Shown here one piece after another: positions 6,241 to 18,586 of a DNA stretch of 22,528 nucleotides. Every line of letters starts with the position of its first letter. Position 1 is the stretch's first letter. The stretch is from a virus. The DNA is taken from IMG/VR virus record IMGVR_UViG_3300046733_000229, positions 1 through 22,528 of that record, one strand, 5' to 3'. Under the pieces are notes generated by a model, which was given only the letters and a program-made list of their open reading frames with translations, was not told the origin of the DNA and searched no databases. Made by a program: the position numbers and the translations under genes.

Positions 6241-6630
6241 TTAAAACTCTCCCTTAATAGAAGCTACTCTAGGAAATCCATTTACTACTATATATACAGA
6301 AAAAGTTCCAGAATTTTCTTCAATTTTGCTTTCTTCTATTCCAAGATTTGATTCTGAAATTGATGTATCTTTTATAATGTTTTCATCAAATTTGTAAAAA
6401 GAATCTTCTTTCCTTTCACTAATACCTTTGTCCATTTCACTTTGAGTAAACCTACCTGTGAGACTACCTCCATCAAATCTTTGATACATTTGATCTCCAC
6501 CTGCATCTTTGTATGCCTCAAATCTAACATCTTCAAATTTTTTATTTCTGGTAGATTCTTTTTGAACAATTTTATTTGCATCAGAAACTGTGTTTTTTTC
6601 TATTTCTAATTCTGTTTTTTTTTCTGGCAT
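6241..6630 (-). CDS. Small hypothetical virion-associated protein (129 aa)
   Basis: Not recognised. Residues 1-100 are highly charged and probably disordered or helical (many Lys, Glu, Asp, Ser). The last 23 residues change character to a beta-like segment, S-V-Y-I-V-V-N-G-F-P-R-V-A-S, of a type seen at the end of small phage tail proteins. The ATG at 6630 shares a base with the stop of the 1255-aa gene (TAATG); AAGG lies about 7 bases upstream of the start. Tight coupling to the repeat protein suggests a partner such as a chaperone or a minor tail component, but nothing in the sequence proves that. Confidence 0.6.
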   Translation of the reverse strand: MPEKKTELEIEKNTVSDANKIVQKESTRNKKFEDVRFEAYKDAGGDQMYQRFDGGSLTGRFTQSEMDKGISERKEDSFYKFDENIIKDTSISESNLGIEESKIEENSGTFSVYIVVNGFPRVASIKGEF

Positions 6631-9600
6631 TAAGAATCCTTGCTAAATTTTATTACTTCATAGTATGTAGTTCCATCAAGAGTAGTCAATACTGGGCGAG
6701 CTTTTTGTTGAATTGTTCCAGTTGTTGTATAACTAGATGGAGGATCTCCACTGGTGTTTAGTGCAGTGCTTCCTTTTACATTTATAGCTGTATTATTATA
6801 AGAAAAACCAGTTTTAAAGCTTATAACATTATTATTAGAATAAGGTGTTGAGGAAGATTGATAATCATAACGAACATCCATACCAAACTCTCTTACAATT
6901 GTATCATCTTGAACTACATTTGCTACTGGAGTACCACTGTATGTAAAAACCTCACCAACAACTGCGGAAGCAGATGCTCCTAATGTTTCCCATTGTGCAT
7001 CAGTAAGATTTGCACCTTTATCTATAATTCTATAAAGTTTACCACCAATCATACCCGTAGTCGTATAACCTAATTCTCCATCTAATAAGTAAGATCCAGG
7101 AAAGTAAGAGTTGTTTGTACTCAATGATGCATTTTTCTGGAAGCCAGTGTCTGTAAGTATATTGTTAGCAGAGCTAACAGTACTTGCTGTAGGCCCTCTT
7201 CTGTTACTTAAAGATGTGTTTATTCTTGTTATTGCACATGAAATTCCATCTAGATTGTAAGCTAACTGGCTAATTGTAGGTATAACTGTAGATATTGATT
7301 CTGTAACAGTAGCCTTTATTTTAATAGTATTAGGCGGTACTGTTTCAATAAATGCTTGATATTTATTGTTATTAATAGCTGAACTAGCTAGATTTCCAGT
7401 AGCGGTATATCTTCTACATTTAACAGTTCCAGGAACTTGCACTGATAAGATATTTTCATATGAAACCTTATCTCCAGTTATTTGTCCTACTAGATAGGCA
7501 GTTACTCCCGAACCTAAGCTACTACCACTTGTAGCTTGAAAATAACCCCCAATGATTCCAGGATTAGGGCCTCCTACTGATGAATAATCACCATTACTAT
7601 TTACCTTATATGTTCTACCGCTTACATAATCTATGGTTGTAGATGTAGCATCTGTTCCTTTTATATACGATCTGCTAAATGCAGAAAATCCATTATTGTT
7701 TTGTTGCTGTTTATCTACTAACTTAATGTCATTTGTTTCTGTAAGAGCAACAGGCGTTGATCCAGAGCTAGTTATTGTTATTCTTTCAGTTCCTGGCATA
7801 CTTTGCGGGCCAGTTGATTCCGATCTAGCTGACTCTCCTGGTTCTGTAAATATAGCTTGTAATTTTACGAAAGTTCCCGAATCTCCTCGTTTATCAACCC
7901 TTAACTCAGACAAAACTAATGTTATGTTACCTGCATCACTAAATGTTATGCTAGTATTACCTATATCGTAAATTGCATTATAGTCATAATTAAATGCTTC
8001 ATATATAGTTCTTGATACTTGTAAGCGATTATTGGCTGTATATCTAACTACATCAGATGTATTTATTTCAAATGTGAATACAGTTGTTTTAATACCATCG
8101 TGGTTACTTTCTTTTTGTTCTATTAGTCTGTGATCATTTGTAAGTTCATCTAAATCAGATACGACCTCCGTAGATATTTTACTAAAAGCTTGTACTTGAA
8201 TAGTATTAATGTCTTCTACGAAATCTTGAGCTACAGATAATATACTAGGTTGCAGATAAGTGTATCGTTTAGTATCAATTCCATCTACATTGGATTCTTC
8301 TTCTCTAGCTAGAACATAATCAGTTCCAGCACCATAAGTATTAGCATCACTAGCTTCATTATTTCCATTAAACACCTCAAGCACTACAGCTTTCTGTGAA
8401 CCAACACTATCTCTACTTCTGGAAAGAACTACATCATCTCTTAAAAACCTAACCCTAACAGTTGTGATTCCATCATGATTACTTTCTGTTCTATCTGCTT
8501 CTGTATGCGTAGTTATAGTATTTCCATCTACATCTTTGCAAGGAATGCTGGCTTCATCAGTGGGGTTAAATATTTCATTTACTATTGCATTCTGTGATCC
8601 TACCTTTTCTTCACTTACAGATAAAAGTGCATTACTTTGTAAAAAAGTATAAGTAAATGTTTCTTTTCCTAAAGCCCCAGACTCTTCTTTTCTGGCTATA
8701 GAATAACCACTTTCTCCACTAAATAAACTTGCTTCAGCGGTCGTAGGCTCAGCTTGAAACTTAGATATTACTACAGATTTTTGCGATCCTACTAAATCAA
8801 ATGACTCAGATAATATAACTCCATTTCTGTTAAATGTATATCTTTCTGTAGGTATACCATCTACATTGGATTCTACCTTAGAAACTAATGTAAAATTAGA
8901 CTGAGTATCTCTGCTACTAGATGGTTTAAATACTTCTAATACTTCAGTTAATAAAGGTGACTTACTGTCCGTTGATTTAGATAAAACAGTATCATCTTTT
9001 AAGAAACGGACTCTAATAGTTTTTATACCTTCGTAGTTACTTTCAGTTCTATCTACTTCTGAATAACCAGATAGAGCAACATTGTCAGTATCTACCCCAG
9101 TAATAGATTCACTGGTTGGATTGAATATTTCGTTTACTATAGCATTTTGTGACCCAATCTTATCCTCCGTAACGGAAACTATTGAATTATCTTTAGCAAA
9201 AGTATACCTCATTGTTGGTACACCATCTAAATTAGATTGCTGTATTCCAATTAATGAATAGCCTCGTTTGTCATACCTATGCGATACAGCAAGACCTTGT
9301 AAGCTACTAGGCAATGTTTGATCAAATTCCCTAAAAGTAATATTAAATAGTTCATTATCTCCTGTTCCGTTCCATCCAGTTAATGGTGGATCGTCTACAT
9401 TATCTGAATTGGTATCAGTACTTGTTGAAAATATATTAGTAAATTGATTAATCTGCCATGAACTGCCACTGTAGGTTACACCCTTGGAGAACATATCTCC
9501 CTGTGATTGGTAGTATCTATTTTTGTTATTAGATTGAGTTGTATACAAAAAGTAATCTCCAGATATACTACTCCCTCCATCAATACTAAGGCCATCTATA

Positions 9601-10397
9601 GTAACCTTTGGATTAAATACTTCTATTACTTCTGTTTTTAAACTGTTTTGCCTATCTTGTGATTGAGACAAAATAGTGTTATCTAATAAAAATGTATATG
9701 TATATACATTTAATCCACCTTCTTGTGCGGTATCTTTTCTAGCTATTGACCAATCTGAACTTCCATCATAGGTAATATCGCTTTTTGCTGATGCTTCTGA
9801 AGTTGTAGGCTCACTACCTACTTTTGTAATAATAATAGCTTTTTGTGACCCAACAATATCTTCTCTAACATCAGTAATGCCAGAAGTAAGAAAAGATAAT
9901 GTTAATTCTGCGAATGAACCACTGTCTTTTAAATCAGATTTAGCTAGTATAAAGCTAGTATTAGATCCGCCAGCATTTGTTGTTCCCACATCACCAGAGT
10001 ATGTAGTGCCAGATTGAGCCCTCAGTACCCTTGTAAGCCTCTTTATTCCGTTTTCTAGCTCTTCTATCTGATCTTCATCTGTAACTTGCACAAACGAAGA
10101 TGTAAGCGTTTCATAGGTCTTCACTAATACAGCATTAGAATTGTTTGCAACAGCATTAAAACGACTGTCTATTTCAACTGAGATTAGTTGCAAATCAGTA
10201 TAGCCTTGATTGACTATCTGTTGACCTGCTGTATCTAAATCACCAAAATCTCCTAGTAGGCTACCATAACTAGCATTGTCTACATCTTCTCGTGTAAACT
10301 TTTTAAACCTGCGTACAACTCTCAGTCTACCATTAGGTAGCTTAGTGATTTCTGGTATCTCACTAATTTGGTGTATATTAGAATTTCCTATAGACAT
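6630..10397 (-). CDS. Very large repeat-containing tail/fibre protein (1255 aa)
   Basis: No signal peptide or membrane helix. Residues 1-145 form a helical/charged N-terminal part (P-N-G-R-L-R-V-V-R-R-F-K-K), probably the virion attachment end. Residues 155-803 hold about nine related beta-rich units, with signatures E-S-N-x-D-G-I-x-T, Y-T-F and G-S-Q-K-A-V-V. Residues from 900 contain a module reading G-R-T-Y-K-V-N-S-N-G-D-Y-S-S-V-G and later G-G-K-L-Y-R-I-I-D-K-G, reminiscent of the small 'Y-x-I-x-x-x-G' modules common in phage fibres. Composition is Ser/Thr/Asn/Gly rich. ATG at 10397 is 3 bases after the preceding stop and has no clear Shine-Dalgarno. Best reading: a long tail fibre or tail-associated structural protein, probably facing the outside; enzyme activity is not evident. 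Confidence 0.75.
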   Translation of the reverse strand: MSIGNSNIHQISEIPEITKLPNGRLRVVRRFKKFTREDVDNASYGSLLGDFGDLDTAGQQIVNQGYTDLQLISVEIDSRFNAVANNSNAVLVKTYETLTSSFVQVTDEDQIEELENGIKRLTRVLRAQSGTTYSGDVGTTNAGGSNTSFILAKSDLKDSGSFAELTLSFLTSGITDVREDIVGSQKAIIITKVGSEPTTSEASAKSDITYDGSSDWSIARKDTAQEGGLNVYTYTFLLDNTILSQSQDRQNSLKTEVIEVFNPKVTIDGLSIDGGSSISGDYFLYTTQSNNKNRYYQSQGDMFSKGVTYSGSSWQINQFTNIFSTSTDTNSDNVDDPPLTGWNGTGDNELFNITFREFDQTLPSSLQGLAVSHRYDKRGYSLIGIQQSNLDGVPTMRYTFAKDNSIVSVTEDKIGSQNAIVNEIFNPTSESITGVDTDNVALSGYSEVDRTESNYEGIKTIRVRFLKDDTVLSKSTDSKSPLLTEVLEVFKPSSSRDTQSNFTLVSKVESNVDGIPTERYTFNRNGVILSESFDLVGSQKSVVISKFQAEPTTAEASLFSGESGYSIARKEESGALGKETFTYTFLQSNALLSVSEEKVGSQNAIVNEIFNPTDEASIPCKDVDGNTITTHTEADRTESNHDGITTVRVRFLRDDVVLSRSRDSVGSQKAVVLEVFNGNNEASDANTYGAGTDYVLAREEESNVDGIDTKRYTYLQPSILSVAQDFVEDINTIQVQAFSKISTEVVSDLDELTNDHRLIEQKESNHDGIKTTVFTFEINTSDVVRYTANNRLQVSRTIYEAFNYDYNAIYDIGNTSITFSDAGNITLVLSELRVDKRGDSGTFVKLQAIFTEPGESARSESTGPQSMPGTERITITSSGSTPVALTETNDIKLVDKQQQNNNGFSAFSRSYIKGTDATSTTIDYVSGRTYKVNSNGDYSSVGGPNPGIIGGYFQATSGSSLGSGVTAYLVGQITGDKVSYENILSVQVPGTVKCRRYTATGNLASSAINNNKYQAFIETVPPNTIKIKATVTESISTVIPTISQLAYNLDGISCAITRINTSLSNRRGPTASTVSSANNILTDTGFQKNASLSTNNSYFPGSYLLDGELGYTTTGMIGGKLYRIIDKGANLTDAQWETLGASASAVVGEVFTYSGTPVANVVQDDTIVREFGMDVRYDYQSSSTPYSNNNVISFKTGFSYNNTAINVKGSTALNTSGDPPSSYTTTGTIQQKARPVLTTLDGTTYYEVIKFSKDS
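7989..9935 (-). repeat. About nine divergent protein repeats of 44-54 residues in the 1255-aa gene
   Basis: Units start near residues 155, 218, 382, 448, 504, 566, 634, 695 and 757. The full pattern is (I/V)xRxESNxDGIxTxxxxFxxxxxxLSxSxDxxGSQxAxVxExFNP. Some DNA is still nearly identical between copies: the plus-strand 19-mer CCATCTACATTGGATTCTx recurs near 8281 and 8858. Units 1 and 5 share E-P-T-T-x-E-A-S followed by S-I-A-R-K, and units 4 and 7 share R-T-E-S-N followed by R-V-R-F-L, suggesting duplication of blocks larger than one unit. Confidence 0.8.
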
Positions 10398-10400
10398 ATG

Positions 10401-10805
10401 TTACTTTACTGTTGATGATCCAAAATAAAACGATACAATTGTAATAATACTTGTTCGTATTTCTGGTAGTATAACATATCCGTATAAAGTTTCGTAGCTA
10501 ACACCTTTAATTAAACCAAACCACTTGCTATATTCTCTAGCTACAGTAACACCATCGCCACTATGAGCTAATAAAAATGGAGCTACGACAACACCAAATA
10601 ATACAGTTATTACAATAAATCTTCGTACCCAAGCACCACCAGGGCCTCCACGCTTGTCAGCACGATCAGCACTGTCATCTGATGCTTTTTGTTTTTTGAT
10701 AAGACCTTCCGTAAGGGCTTGTTGATTAGATACCATAGTACCTATTAATTTAAAGATGAAGCCACTAGCTCCACCACCTAACATAGCTAATAATTCAGTA
10801 GTCAT
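10401..10805 (-). CDS. Holin-like membrane protein with three hydrophobic segments (134 aa)
   Basis: Three hydrophobic stretches are visible: residues 4-22 (with G-G-G-A-S-G-F), 62-81 (I-V-I-T-V-L-F-G-V-V-V-A-P) and about 107-129. Between the first two lies a charged linker with I-K-K-Q-K-A-S-D-D-S-A-D-R-A and R-G-G. I recall similar proteins in marine phages, named variously as holin or structural protein; the size and topology fit a small holin, but no experiment is implied. I start at ATG 10805, which shares a base with the upstream TAA (TAATG), rather than an in-frame ATG five codons earlier at 10820. Adjacent to another single-helix membrane gene, so this may be the lysis cluster. An endolysin is not found in the window. 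Confidence 0.7.
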   Translation of the reverse strand: MTTELLAMLGGGASGFIFKLIGTMVSNQQALTEGLIKKQKASDDSADRADKRGGPGGAWVRRFIVITVLFGVVVAPFLLAHSGDGVTVAREYSKWFGLIKGVSYETLYGYVILPEIRTSIITIVSFYFGSSTVK

Positions 10806-11044
10806 TATCTGCACTTCCATCTACGGAGAGCTAACGCTTTGCGTGTAGGTCTTCCTTTTTTATCTTTCATTGGGCCTTTTACCCCCGACATTCTTGCACA
10901 AAAAGACTTCTTGCGTTTAGCCCTTTTTCCTTTTGGTTTAGATTCTGTTACAGGTGGTTTTAAGTTAGATCCAGATTTTCGCTTAAAGTAAGCACGACCT
11001 TTAGCTGTTAATCCACCTTTTTTACTTTTGTGTTCTTTTCTCAT
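10805..11044 (-). CDS. Small very basic protein with S-F-C-A-R-M motif (79 aa)
   Basis: A highly cationic protein with Lys/Arg clusters throughout. Recognisable segments are G-G-L-T-A-K-G-R-A-Y-F-K-R-K at 10-23, K-K-S-F-C-A-R-M-S-G at 45-54 and a C-terminal R-K-A-L-A-L-R-R-W-K-C. This set belongs to a small uncharacterised family I recall from many phages and environmental genomes (possibly DUF6321; not verified). Cys49 and Cys78 are its only cysteines; K-K-G-R-P at 62-66 resembles an AT-hook core. ATG 11044 overlaps the preceding stop (ATGA) and has a strong AAGGAG site about 5 bases upstream. DNA binding is plausible from charge but not shown. Confidence 0.75.
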   Translation of the reverse strand: MRKEHKSKKGGLTAKGRAYFKRKSGSNLKPPVTESKPKGKRAKRKKSFCARMSGVKGPMKDKKGRPTRKALALRRWKCR

Positions 11045-15150: not shown

Positions 15151-16215
15151 TTAAGCAATCTCGCTTATCTTACCTAGACCTTTAGGGCCTTTACAGATAA
15201 GAGTACCCATTGAATCAATGTAACCACGAGGGCCACCACCTTGGTCTTCTAACATTGTAGAACCAGTTGGTAGAGCCTCTGCCCATCCTAGTAATGATGG
15301 ATCAATTAAGTATCCACGATCATTAAGAGAACCAGGCATACATTTTGGATTAGCTGTTAAGATCTTAACAACTCCAAATGGGCCATTGAACATTTCAACA
15401 TTGTACTCAACTACTGCACCGCTATCTTGGTTGTATTGAACCTGTGAAGCTGAACCATTTGTACGAGTAAACTCGTCAACGATGTGGTTACGAAGAGCAG
15501 TGTCTGCAACTAAGTGCAAATCTTGCATTTCACCTGTTTCATTGAAGATAGAAGCAAGGATTCCTGCGAACTCACCTTCAGTAAGATCACCAGTTGAATT
15601 GCCGTTAACATCTGCGTCATTTGTATCAGTGTGAGATGCTCCGTGAATGCTTGTTAATGGAGTACGGAATGCACTCGGTACTTGAGTTGCACCATCAGCA
15701 CCACCAGCACCATCAGCACCACCACTATTAGAAATCCAGCGACCTAAGCCACGAAGTTTTCCAGCGGCCGAACCAGTTCCAGCAACAGCACCTTGATCAG
15801 AGCAGATAGCTTTTTCAATGTCACGAAGTAACTCTGAAGTAGCTTTTTCTTCTGCTTGCTGTAATTTTACAGGTGTAACAGAATCAAGAACTTCTTGTTT
15901 CTTAGTAACCATGAATGATTTACGGAAGTGCTGAAGACGATTGTCTAAACGAGCTAGAGCACCGAATTTGCGAGCTTCTGTATCAGCAGATGCAGTACCG
16001 AATGATAAGTCATTACCTTCAATTACTGCATTGTCTGATGGATCTGCTAAGTCATCAACTGTCCATTCTACTAGATCAGCAGTTGCCTTTGATTTTGGTA
16101 ACAAGCCATATATAGGGGCTTGGCGAGGGGATAACACAGTAGTAAGGTCAAGCAATTGCTCTCTGTTACCTGCGTTAGAGTTTGTGTTAAATGAGGAGTC
16201 AAATGTTCCTGCCAT
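15151..16215 (-). CDS. Major capsid protein, HK97-fold (SU10/DUF5309-like)
   Basis: 354 residues, the usual size for the family. It starts directly as mature-looking sequence with no obvious long delta domain. Residues 29-41 read S-P-R-Q-A-P-I-Y-G-L-L-P-K, followed by V-E-W-T-V-D-D-L (49-56) and E-L-L-R-D-I-E-K-A-I (128-137); this succession of motifs is what I recall for the capsid family that includes phage SU10 (DUF5309). A Gly-rich loop with two G-G-A-D-G-A copies lies at 165-176. Upstream neighbour is the scaffold, and a strong terminator follows, matching a high-copy product. ATG 16215 has only a weak purine stretch upstream (GAAAG). Forms the icosahedral shell. Confidence 0.87.
   Translation of the reverse strand: MAGTFDSSFNTNSNAGNREQLLDLTTVLSPRQAPIYGLLPKSKATADLVEWTVDDLADPSDNAVIEGNDLSFGTASADTEARKFGALARLDNRLQHFRKSFMVTKKQEVLDSVTPVKLQQAEEKATSELLRDIEKAICSDQGAVAGTGSAAGKLRGLGRWISNSGGADGAGGADGATQVPSAFRTPLTSIHGASHTDTNDADVNGNSTGDLTEGEFAGILASIFNETGEMQDLHLVADTALRNHIVDEFTRTNGSASQVQYNQDSGAVVEYNVEMFNGPFGVVKILTANPKCMPGSLNDRGYLIDPSLLGWAEALPTGSTMLEDQGGGPRGYIDSMGTLICKGPKGLGKISEIA
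15689..15724 (-). repeat. Perfect 18-bp tandem duplication in the capsid gene
   Basis: The plus-strand 18-mer GCACCATCAGCACCACCA occurs twice in a row (15689-15706, 15707-15724) and encodes G-G-A-D-G-A twice, residues 165-176 of the capsid protein. In frame, so the protein is lengthened by six residues per copy. Confidence 0.95.
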
Positions 16216-17385: not shown

Positions 17386-17401
17386 TTACTTATTTAAGTA
17401 A
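17386..17401. promoter_or_regulatory. 16-bp palindrome in the promoter spacer, possible operator
   Basis: TTACTTA and TAAGTAA are exact inverted repeats around a 2-base centre. The element lies between the presumed -35 position and the extended -10 and overlaps the last codons and stop of the 84-aa gene. Its place is where a repressor or activator could act, but an AT-rich genome makes such palindromes moderately common. Confidence 0.4.
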
Positions 17402-17640
17402 TTTTTAAATGCCACATATGTAAACACAATTAAGCTAATTGTCAATCCTATAGTTGATGATTCGGGAACTGACGGATAAGGAGCATCAAACCTATAATCT
17501 AGTTCCTGCCAACTGTATTCAATTGAATCGTATTCTATCCCGTCCCATTCTTGTCTATCTAATAATGGAATATAATAATACCATTCTTCGGGATAAGGAT
17601 TTACTATTGGTAAAGGGCGAGTTGTTATTTCGTGGCTCAT
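17386..17640 (-). CDS. Small membrane protein with PEP-CTERM-like C-terminal tail (84 aa)
   Basis: Residues 1-57 are rich in Tyr, Trp, Pro, Asp and Glu (P-Y-P-E-E-W-Y-Y-Y; Y-D-S-I-E-Y-S-W) and lack a signal peptide. Residues 58-84 then read V-P-E-S-S-T, a hydrophobic stretch of about 15 residues (64-78) and a Lys-containing end. Motif, helix and short basic tail, 27 residues in all, is the plan of the PEP-CTERM exosortase sorting signal, in which V-P-E-P-S-T is typical and V-P-E-S-S-T a known style of variant. Without an N-terminal signal, exosortase processing is doubtful; a simple tail-anchored membrane protein is the alternative. ATG 17640 overlaps the stop of the 54-aa membrane gene (ATGA), so the two are coupled. 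Function unknown. Confidence 0.65.
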   Translation of the reverse strand: MSHEITTRPLPIVNPYPEEWYYYIPLLDRQEWDGIEYDSIEYSWQELDYRFDAPYPSVPESSTIGLTISLIVFTYVAFKNYLNK

Positions 17641-17801
17641 TTTTTAAATATTGATGTAAAGATTGAAGCAAACTCTCTAAAGATTTTACTAAGGATATTG
17701 TTTTTAGGCAAAAACATTAAAATAATTGATACAATACCAATATATGTAAATGTCATTGCTATTAAATCGTTTTTGTAGTTATTGAGTATATATTCAATCA
17801 T
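17637..17801 (-). CDS. 54-residue single-helix membrane protein
   Basis: Begins M-I-E-Y-I-L-N-N-Y-K-N-D and has one strong transmembrane segment at residues 14-32 (many Ile, Thr, Met, Leu, Phe), then a basic, amphipathic end (K-I-F-R-E-F; I-F-K-K). It overlaps both neighbours by four bases (ATGA at 17798-17801 and at 17637-17640), which makes a chance open frame unlikely. No Shine-Dalgarno is visible, so translation is probably coupled to the upstream gene. Small size and topology are holin-like, but its place among head genes equally suits a minor virion membrane component. Too short to assign to a family. Confidence 0.7.
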   Translation of the reverse strand: MIEYILNNYKNDLIAMTFTYIGIVSIILMFLPKNNILSKIFREFASIFTSIFKK

Positions 17802-18586
17802 AATATAGATGATACTTGTCTATGAGGGCTTATCTCCCCCTCTGTTGGTTCAAATGGTGTATCCACTATTGGTATATCTAACTTGACTTCATTGGAATCC
17901 TTATTAGTCTGGCTAGATGATTTTTCTTGAGCTTCTTTCAACTCTTCAGCTTTTTTTTGCTGGGGCTCTGCTTGCTTATCTGCTTTGCCTTTTGTTTCAC
18001 CTTCTTTAGATGATTTACTTTCTTTTGATTTGGATTCCGTTTCTTTTGATTCTTGGCTTTTTTCAGTGGAGGACTTCTGAGAAAGAGTATCGGAGGAATT
18101 ACCTTGCAAAGAAGCAGAGGATACAGGTTTGGTGTCCTCGCTCAAGGCAGATGATTGAGAAGTCGGTTGTAGTTCGGAAACCTCGGCAACCTTCTCAGCG
18201 ATAACTTGTTGTCCCCATACATCAAGGGATTGAAAGTCAACAAAGTTGTCAATAAATTGTGGTATTTCAAATCTCTCCTCTACAACATCGTTAGCTATTT
18301 CTGCTACAAAAACTGTTGTAAGATCAGTGGCTATACCTACCTGTGCAGTTCCAGCTGTAGCTACAGCTATAGTGCCAGCTGTTCCTAGTTCGCTTACTTT
18401 TTGAACTACTGGAATTTCTTTAATACGATCAACAAGCGATTTTTTAAGGTGCTTAGCACCCTCGTTACCTGTTTTACGAATTTTTTCAACCTCTGCTTTA
18501 ACATCTCCAAGACCTTCTGATTTGAGAAGAACTTGAAGTGCGTCTTTATGCTCAATAAGTATCCGCTTGGCTGTTTTCTTATCCAT
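17798..18586 (-). CDS. Ser/Lys/Glu-rich protein with a hydrophobic core segment (262 aa)
   Basis: Not recognised. Residues 1-60 are helical and charged (K-K-T-A-K-R-I-L-I-E-H-K). Residues 66-95 form a hydrophobic Gly/Ala/Thr/Val stretch (G-T-A-G-T-I-A-V-A-T-A-G-T) that could enter a membrane or pack in an oligomer. Residues 96-140 are a mixed domain with V-V-E-E-R-F-E-I-P-Q-F-I-D. Residues 141-233 are low complexity, dominated by Ser, Lys, Glu and Gln, and are surely disordered. The ATG at 18586 is the only start after an in-frame TAA 18 bases upstream. A second open frame on the same strand (18406-18633) overlaps it but has composition of a shadow. Position suggests a virion-assembly or accessory role. 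Confidence 0.65.
   Translation of the reverse strand: MDKKTAKRILIEHKDALQVLLKSEGLGDVKAEVEKIRKTGNEGAKHLKKSLVDRIKEIPVVQKVSELGTAGTIAVATAGTAQVGIATDLTTVFVAEIANDVVEERFEIPQFIDNFVDFQSLDVWGQQVIAEKVAEVSELQPTSQSSALSEDTKPVSSASLQGNSSDTLSQKSSTEKSQESKETESKSKESKSSKEGETKGKADKQAEPQQKKAEELKEAQEKSSSQTNKDSNEVKLDIPIVDTPFEPTEGEISPHRQVSSIL

Follow-up and report, generated by a model that had tools for sequence, protein, structure and literature searches.

The DNA analysed here (the window) is a viral contig of 22,528 bases with a G+C content of 36%. On its minus strand, an ORF at 17386-17640 encodes an 84-aa protein, p84, with an acidic, Trp/Tyr-rich N-terminal part, a PEP-CTERM-like tail and 57 distinct homologues. 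As the preliminary description had read from the letters alone, residues 58-84 (VPESSTIGLTISLIVFTYVAFKNYLNK in the window translation) run from V-P-E-S-S-T through a hydrophobic helix to a Lys-containing end, and this order was confirmed by the ORF and by an AlphaFold2 model, in which helix 61-82 begins right after P59-E60 with a pLDDT of about 90. The codons of V58-P59-E60 lie at 17461-17469, those of this single predicted transmembrane helix at 17395-17460 and those of the last two residues, Asn-Lys, at 17389-17394 (all minus strand); Asn-Lys forms a short basic end together with K79 just inside the helix end. The ATG of p84 overlaps by 4 nt the stop codon of the gene ahead of it, p54 (17637-17801, minus strand), which encodes a 54-aa single-helix membrane protein recognised in scans of relatives as the constant partner of the tail-bearing gene, and p54 is preceded by p262 (17798-18586, minus strand), so that p262, p54 and p84 form a cassette joined by short overlaps. 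Alignment of relatives showed p262 to be conserved in its N-terminal half, which contains a hydrophobic stretch rich in Gly/Ala/Val/Thr; a long linker rich in Ser/Glu/Lys comes next and leads, in many members, to another conserved segment around RQVSP at the end, a layout resembling a docking peptide on a flexible arm. Matches of p54 to TIGR02848 and other weak matches, as well as low-complexity matches of p262, were treated as chance. We also rejected the idea that frameshifting at the overlap fuses p54 to p84, since p84 would then, to judge from the charges of p54, stay on the cytoplasmic side.

A first scan found seven relatives and an alignment scan 61 loci; 57 distinct p84 proteins were reached after a scan for the neighbouring 54-aa gene had been added. 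Searches for p84 gave nothing significant in 50,697 phage records and no relative in genome contigs. All 57 proteins have [VI]-P-E directly ahead of the helix with P-E invariant, and the next residue is Pro in 52 of them, Ser in three (the window included) and Phe or Gln in one each. Across the family the invariant Pro is encoded by all four of its codons and the Glu by both, and P-E is therefore conserved at the protein level. Within the body, residues G34, Y42, W44, E46, Y49 and R50 are likewise invariant in the homologue alignment. One check put forward in the preliminary description was whether relatives keep the helix and lose the P-E motif; the opposite was seen, since the helix diverges and is even swapped among homologues while [VI]-P-E stays constant. 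Bodies up to 99% identical bear tails that are only 24-30% identical and always retain VPEP, as for L081 and L090 (bodies 99%, tails 29%). The plan common to the family is [VI]PE(P/S), a helix of 16-19 residues and a short basic end, typical tails being VPEPAFVGLFMGLCLLTLTLIKRK and VPEPSFYGLVLGFSLLLLTMIKRRK. Past the helix, 53 of the 57 members have 2-9 residues and the other four 27-35, so that in these four distinct proteins (L007 10001-10357, L062 3564-3920, L082 4151-4519 and L086 2204-2551) the tail is not strictly terminal. Their p54 partners have a distinct form with an FPF.KIVAF...FKR end, which hints, at the level of sequence, that p54 and the tail evolve together.

We compared these tails with curated PEP-CTERM models. 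Scored alone, the window tail reached 15.6 bits with TIGR02595, just below the cut-off of 16 bits (E <= 0.0155 in a test of 51 tails), and full-length p84 of the window had no match in Pfam or NCBIfam; the PEP-CTERM call made from the window sequence alone is borderline. Taken together, the homologues make a PEP-CTERM-type call secure. The TIGR02595 cut-off was exceeded by 24 of 51 distinct tails, among them L048 and L053, and by none of the 51 when the same tails were shuffled; eight further NCBIfam families were matched, every one of them PEP-CTERM. At full length, the L104 homologue (tail VPEPSTYALLAGFAVLIFTMIKRRNK) passed both PF07589 (21.8 vs 20.7) and TIGR02595 (21.4 vs 16). A comparison from the bacterial side was made with a profile built from only 39 tails of one Opitutae-containing order, which was run against 2,312 distinct phage C-termini: ranks 1-37 were all p84 members, and no shuffled tail was reported. 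The window came last of the p84 members with 7.0 bits, the best unrelated phage C-terminus having 6.8. Thus the PEP-CTERM-like reading of the preliminary description is supported by the homologues, while its proposal to set the profile score against background gave a divided answer, with the window nearly at background and the family not. Because its own score falls short and a signal peptide is missing, we do not class the window p84 itself as a PEP-CTERM member, although on present evidence it appears to work like one; close homologues of it do pass PEP-CTERM models. That Val-Pro-Glu merely happens to stand ahead of an ordinary C-terminal helix would agree with the window's own score at the edge of background, but is highly improbable given the family-wide conservation, the 24 of 51 tails over the cut-off against none after shuffling, and the occurrence of the tail on two unrelated bodies as described below.

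The second body was found in the cassettes of relatives. Among 84 complete distinct cassettes (two further ones were cut off or ambiguous and stand outside this number), the third gene is p84 in 58 and a protein of 205-206 aa in 26, and all 84 end in [VI]PE, a helix and a basic end. The 205-206 aa protein has an unrelated body, an N-terminus that by eye resembles a signal peptide, and a tail such as IPELKDTGLWIALIIGFFVAFSYFKIRS; in a profile comparison with p84 only the last 34 residues align. Its third motif residue is Pro in only 8 of 27 cases, and neither of two members scored matches a PEP-CTERM model. The body is predicted to be a beta-sandwich (model pLDDT 55). A fold search with this model returned weak matches to beta-sandwiches of the carbohydrate-binding-module or lectin-like kind (best E 0.003), which at this pLDDT were not taken as evidence. 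A search of 177 genomes from the likely host order gave no homologue of the body, an empty answer that proves little. By their sequences, then, two unrelated phage proteins of an accessory membrane cassette carry a conserved PEP-CTERM-type tail, p84 being the variable tail-bearing third gene of this cassette in marine phages. From the tail swaps and the two unrelated bodies it follows that the tail plan is kept rather than a given body or helix. The similarity to the PEP-CTERM domain (TIGR02595/PF07589), which marks substrates of the exosortases EpsH/Xrt, comprises the C-terminal [VI]PE, in p84 mostly followed by Pro, the single helix, the short basic cluster, the occurrence on unrelated bodies and the L104 scores over both curated cut-offs; unlike that domain, the tails are encoded by phages, within a cassette of three genes that is itself conserved, a signal peptide is missing from the 84-aa type, the window copy is just under the cut-off and the 205-aa type often has no third Pro.

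The position of the cassette has to be considered together with a second possibility, namely that the tail does no more than fix a protein of a spanin- or antiholin-like module, acting in lysis or envelope disruption, in the membrane, P-E being kept as a contact site for p54 or p262 and not for an exosortase. The cassette of most relatives directly follows the gene for a 139-aa holin-like membrane protein (phrog_38283; 10401-10820, minus strand, in the window), p262 starting 0-100 nt downstream of it in 84 of 104 comparable loci, a number that includes some repeated fetches of one contig. Also in line with a lysis module, p54 always accompanies the tail, its more divergent forms pair with the p84 forms extended past the helix, and the 205-aa type combines an N-terminal hydrophobic segment with a C-terminal helix. 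By sequence the latter resembles a unimolecular spanin of the phage T1 gp11 type, with a putative N-terminal export signal, a predicted periplasmic beta body, a C-terminal helix and a holin-like gene nearby. Unlike such spanins, the phage proteins have the P-E motif, the 84-aa type is without an N-terminal anchor, and the N-terminal regions of the 205-aa proteins, when aligned, contained no lipobox Cys for lipidation. Moreover, many relatives with the holin-like gene are without the cassette, which is accessory, and in the window lineage the cassette lies upstream of the scaffold gene, over 8 kb from the holin-like gene. A plain anchor also gives no reason for the closest profiles being PEP-CTERM families without exception, for the blind selection of the p84 family by bacterial Opitutae tails or for the persistence of P-E through tail swaps. 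A lysis-type membrane module in which P-E serves another partner such as p54 is the best rival explanation, and we regard it as rather unlikely.

Across the p84 family the net charge averages -11.4 ahead of P-E and +3.2 past the helix, where it ranges from +1 to +9, and the positive-inside rule supports an N-out/C-in topology. In this orientation P-E would lie where the inner membrane faces outwards, as the published PEP-CTERM model has it for PEP (PMC1569441). About 97% of bacterial PEP-CTERM proteins have a signal peptide (PMC1569441), and none is present at the N-terminus of the 84-aa type, neither in the window sequence nor in the homologue alignment. The preliminary description was right to see a problem for export here, at least as regards the 84-aa type. 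The difficulty is smaller given a strongly acidic N-side and a basic C-side, both favourable to insertion N-out, and given that the alternative protein of about 205 aa has a signal-peptide-like N-terminus. The Pf3 coat protein is inserted N-out without a signal peptide, for which it needs N-terminal charges, YidC and the proton motive force (PMC8548208). Like p84, it has no signal peptide and combines a short acidic N-terminal segment with a single helix and a basic C-terminus; in p84, by contrast, the N-terminal part is longer (about 58-80 aa) and a conserved P-E stands at the outer helix border. By this analogy, the N-terminal 58-80 residues of p84 may also be translocated.

As exosortase was found in none of 25 of the phage records, a sorting model depends wholly on the host, whose identity we infer. 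A major capsid protein of the SU10 type (15151-16215, minus strand) served to find relatives and host clues. The best match from a cultured phage to the holin-like protein of the window (49.6% identity) comes from Verrucomicrobia phage P8625, whose host is Puniceicoccales sp. IMCC8625; another strong match was found in phage C75C1, with no recorded host, and distant ones in Roseobacter phages. Binning assigned one related capsid contig (39% identity) to an uncultured Opitutae MAG; this MAG has two exosortases, 16 PEP-CTERM matches above the cut-off, and tails such as VVPEPSTYALLGGLFALSFVAMRRRK, which are matched by p84 tails like that of L104. Another related capsid contig was assigned to a Rickettsiales MAG that yielded neither exosortase nor PEP-CTERM matches, and because of this conflict the binning of capsid contigs is only a weak host clue. 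Among the related contigs, the 8-kb L166, binned as Rickettsiales MAG MED657, breaks off just past the holin-like gene, at the place expected for the start of the cassette. No tRNAs that could serve as a host clue were found. Within the likely host order, PEP-CTERM matches occurred in 85 of 132 sampled genomes and exosortase in 93. Marine Puniceicoccales/Opitutae (Verrucomicrobia) are thus the likely hosts, judged from sequence, and the suggestion that the tail may point to the host lineage gained ground both from the L104-like tails and from the window gene being closest to a Puniceicoccales phage gene. PEP-CTERM proteins of Opitutae/Puniceicoccales, for example those of the MAG behind L165, share VPEPSTYALLAG-type tails with the phage proteins, and the signal-peptide-like N-terminus and predicted beta-sandwich of the 205-aa type are found in many secreted proteins; unlike the phage tails, the host tails have Arg runs at the end and smaller helix residues.

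Overall, the constant tail on the last cassette protein resembles the tag by which some bacteria direct proteins to their surface, and it suggests that the phage makes use of the sorting machinery of its host. We consider it reasonably probable that p84 and the 205-aa protein, with their PEP-CTERM-type tails, stand N-out in the host membrane as exosortase substrates or decoys. According to this model, the phages would infect Puniceicoccales/Opitutae or similar exosortase-bearing bacteria, and the protein would insert so that its acidic N-terminal part faces the periplasm while the basic end stays cytoplasmic, the 205-aa type by its signal peptide and the 84-aa type by YidC/Sec and the proton motive force, which would move the short acidic N-tail across without one. 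P-E, now on the outward side of the inner membrane, would be recognised by host exosortase, which would either cleave the phage protein and release or sort it to the cell surface, or be occupied by it. The likeliest benefit to the phage would be an altered surface or extracellular matrix of the infected cell, with superinfection exclusion and interference with host surface proteins as candidate forms. A decoy inhibitor is a sub-case of this model, in which the tail would mimic host tails and jam exosortase while the phage protein stays unsorted. Such a role would suit the small p84 body without signal peptide, a helix more hydrophobic than that of host tails and the absence of exosortase from the 25 phage records searched, but the secreted-type body of the 205-aa version with its predicted beta-sandwich would be superfluous for a mere decoy and the invariant residues of the p84 body likewise speak against it, so that we judge it unlikely. 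In a wider sense, the chances seem evenly balanced that phages of marine Verrucomicrobia-like hosts use the exosortase/PEP-CTERM route of the host to display accessory proteins on the infected cell, or block it, with interchangeable bodies of which one needs no signal peptide for the export of its N-terminal domain.

Among 5.39 million open-licence papers, none was found that describes phage proteins with PEP-CTERM-type tails. If the tails are exosortase substrates, they would open a first view on phage manipulation of the exosortase route of surface sorting; they would provide, at about 80 aa and without a large body, a small natural set of substrates on which recognition by exosortase can be studied; and their sequences would mark the hosts of uncultured marine phages. 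The type free of a signal peptide would in that case also test exosortase substrate delivery by N-tail translocation.

Two further genes on the minus strand lie beside the holin-like gene of the window. The first (10805-11044) encodes a small basic DUF6321-like protein (MRKEHKSKKGGLTAKGRAYFKRKSG...), one of several tiny Lys/Arg-rich genes grouped around the cassette in relatives. The second (6630-10397) encodes a protein of 1,255 aa with several near-repeats, for example ESN.DGI.T.R..F and SVGSQ.A.V.E.FN, which is probably a tail fibre or appendage.
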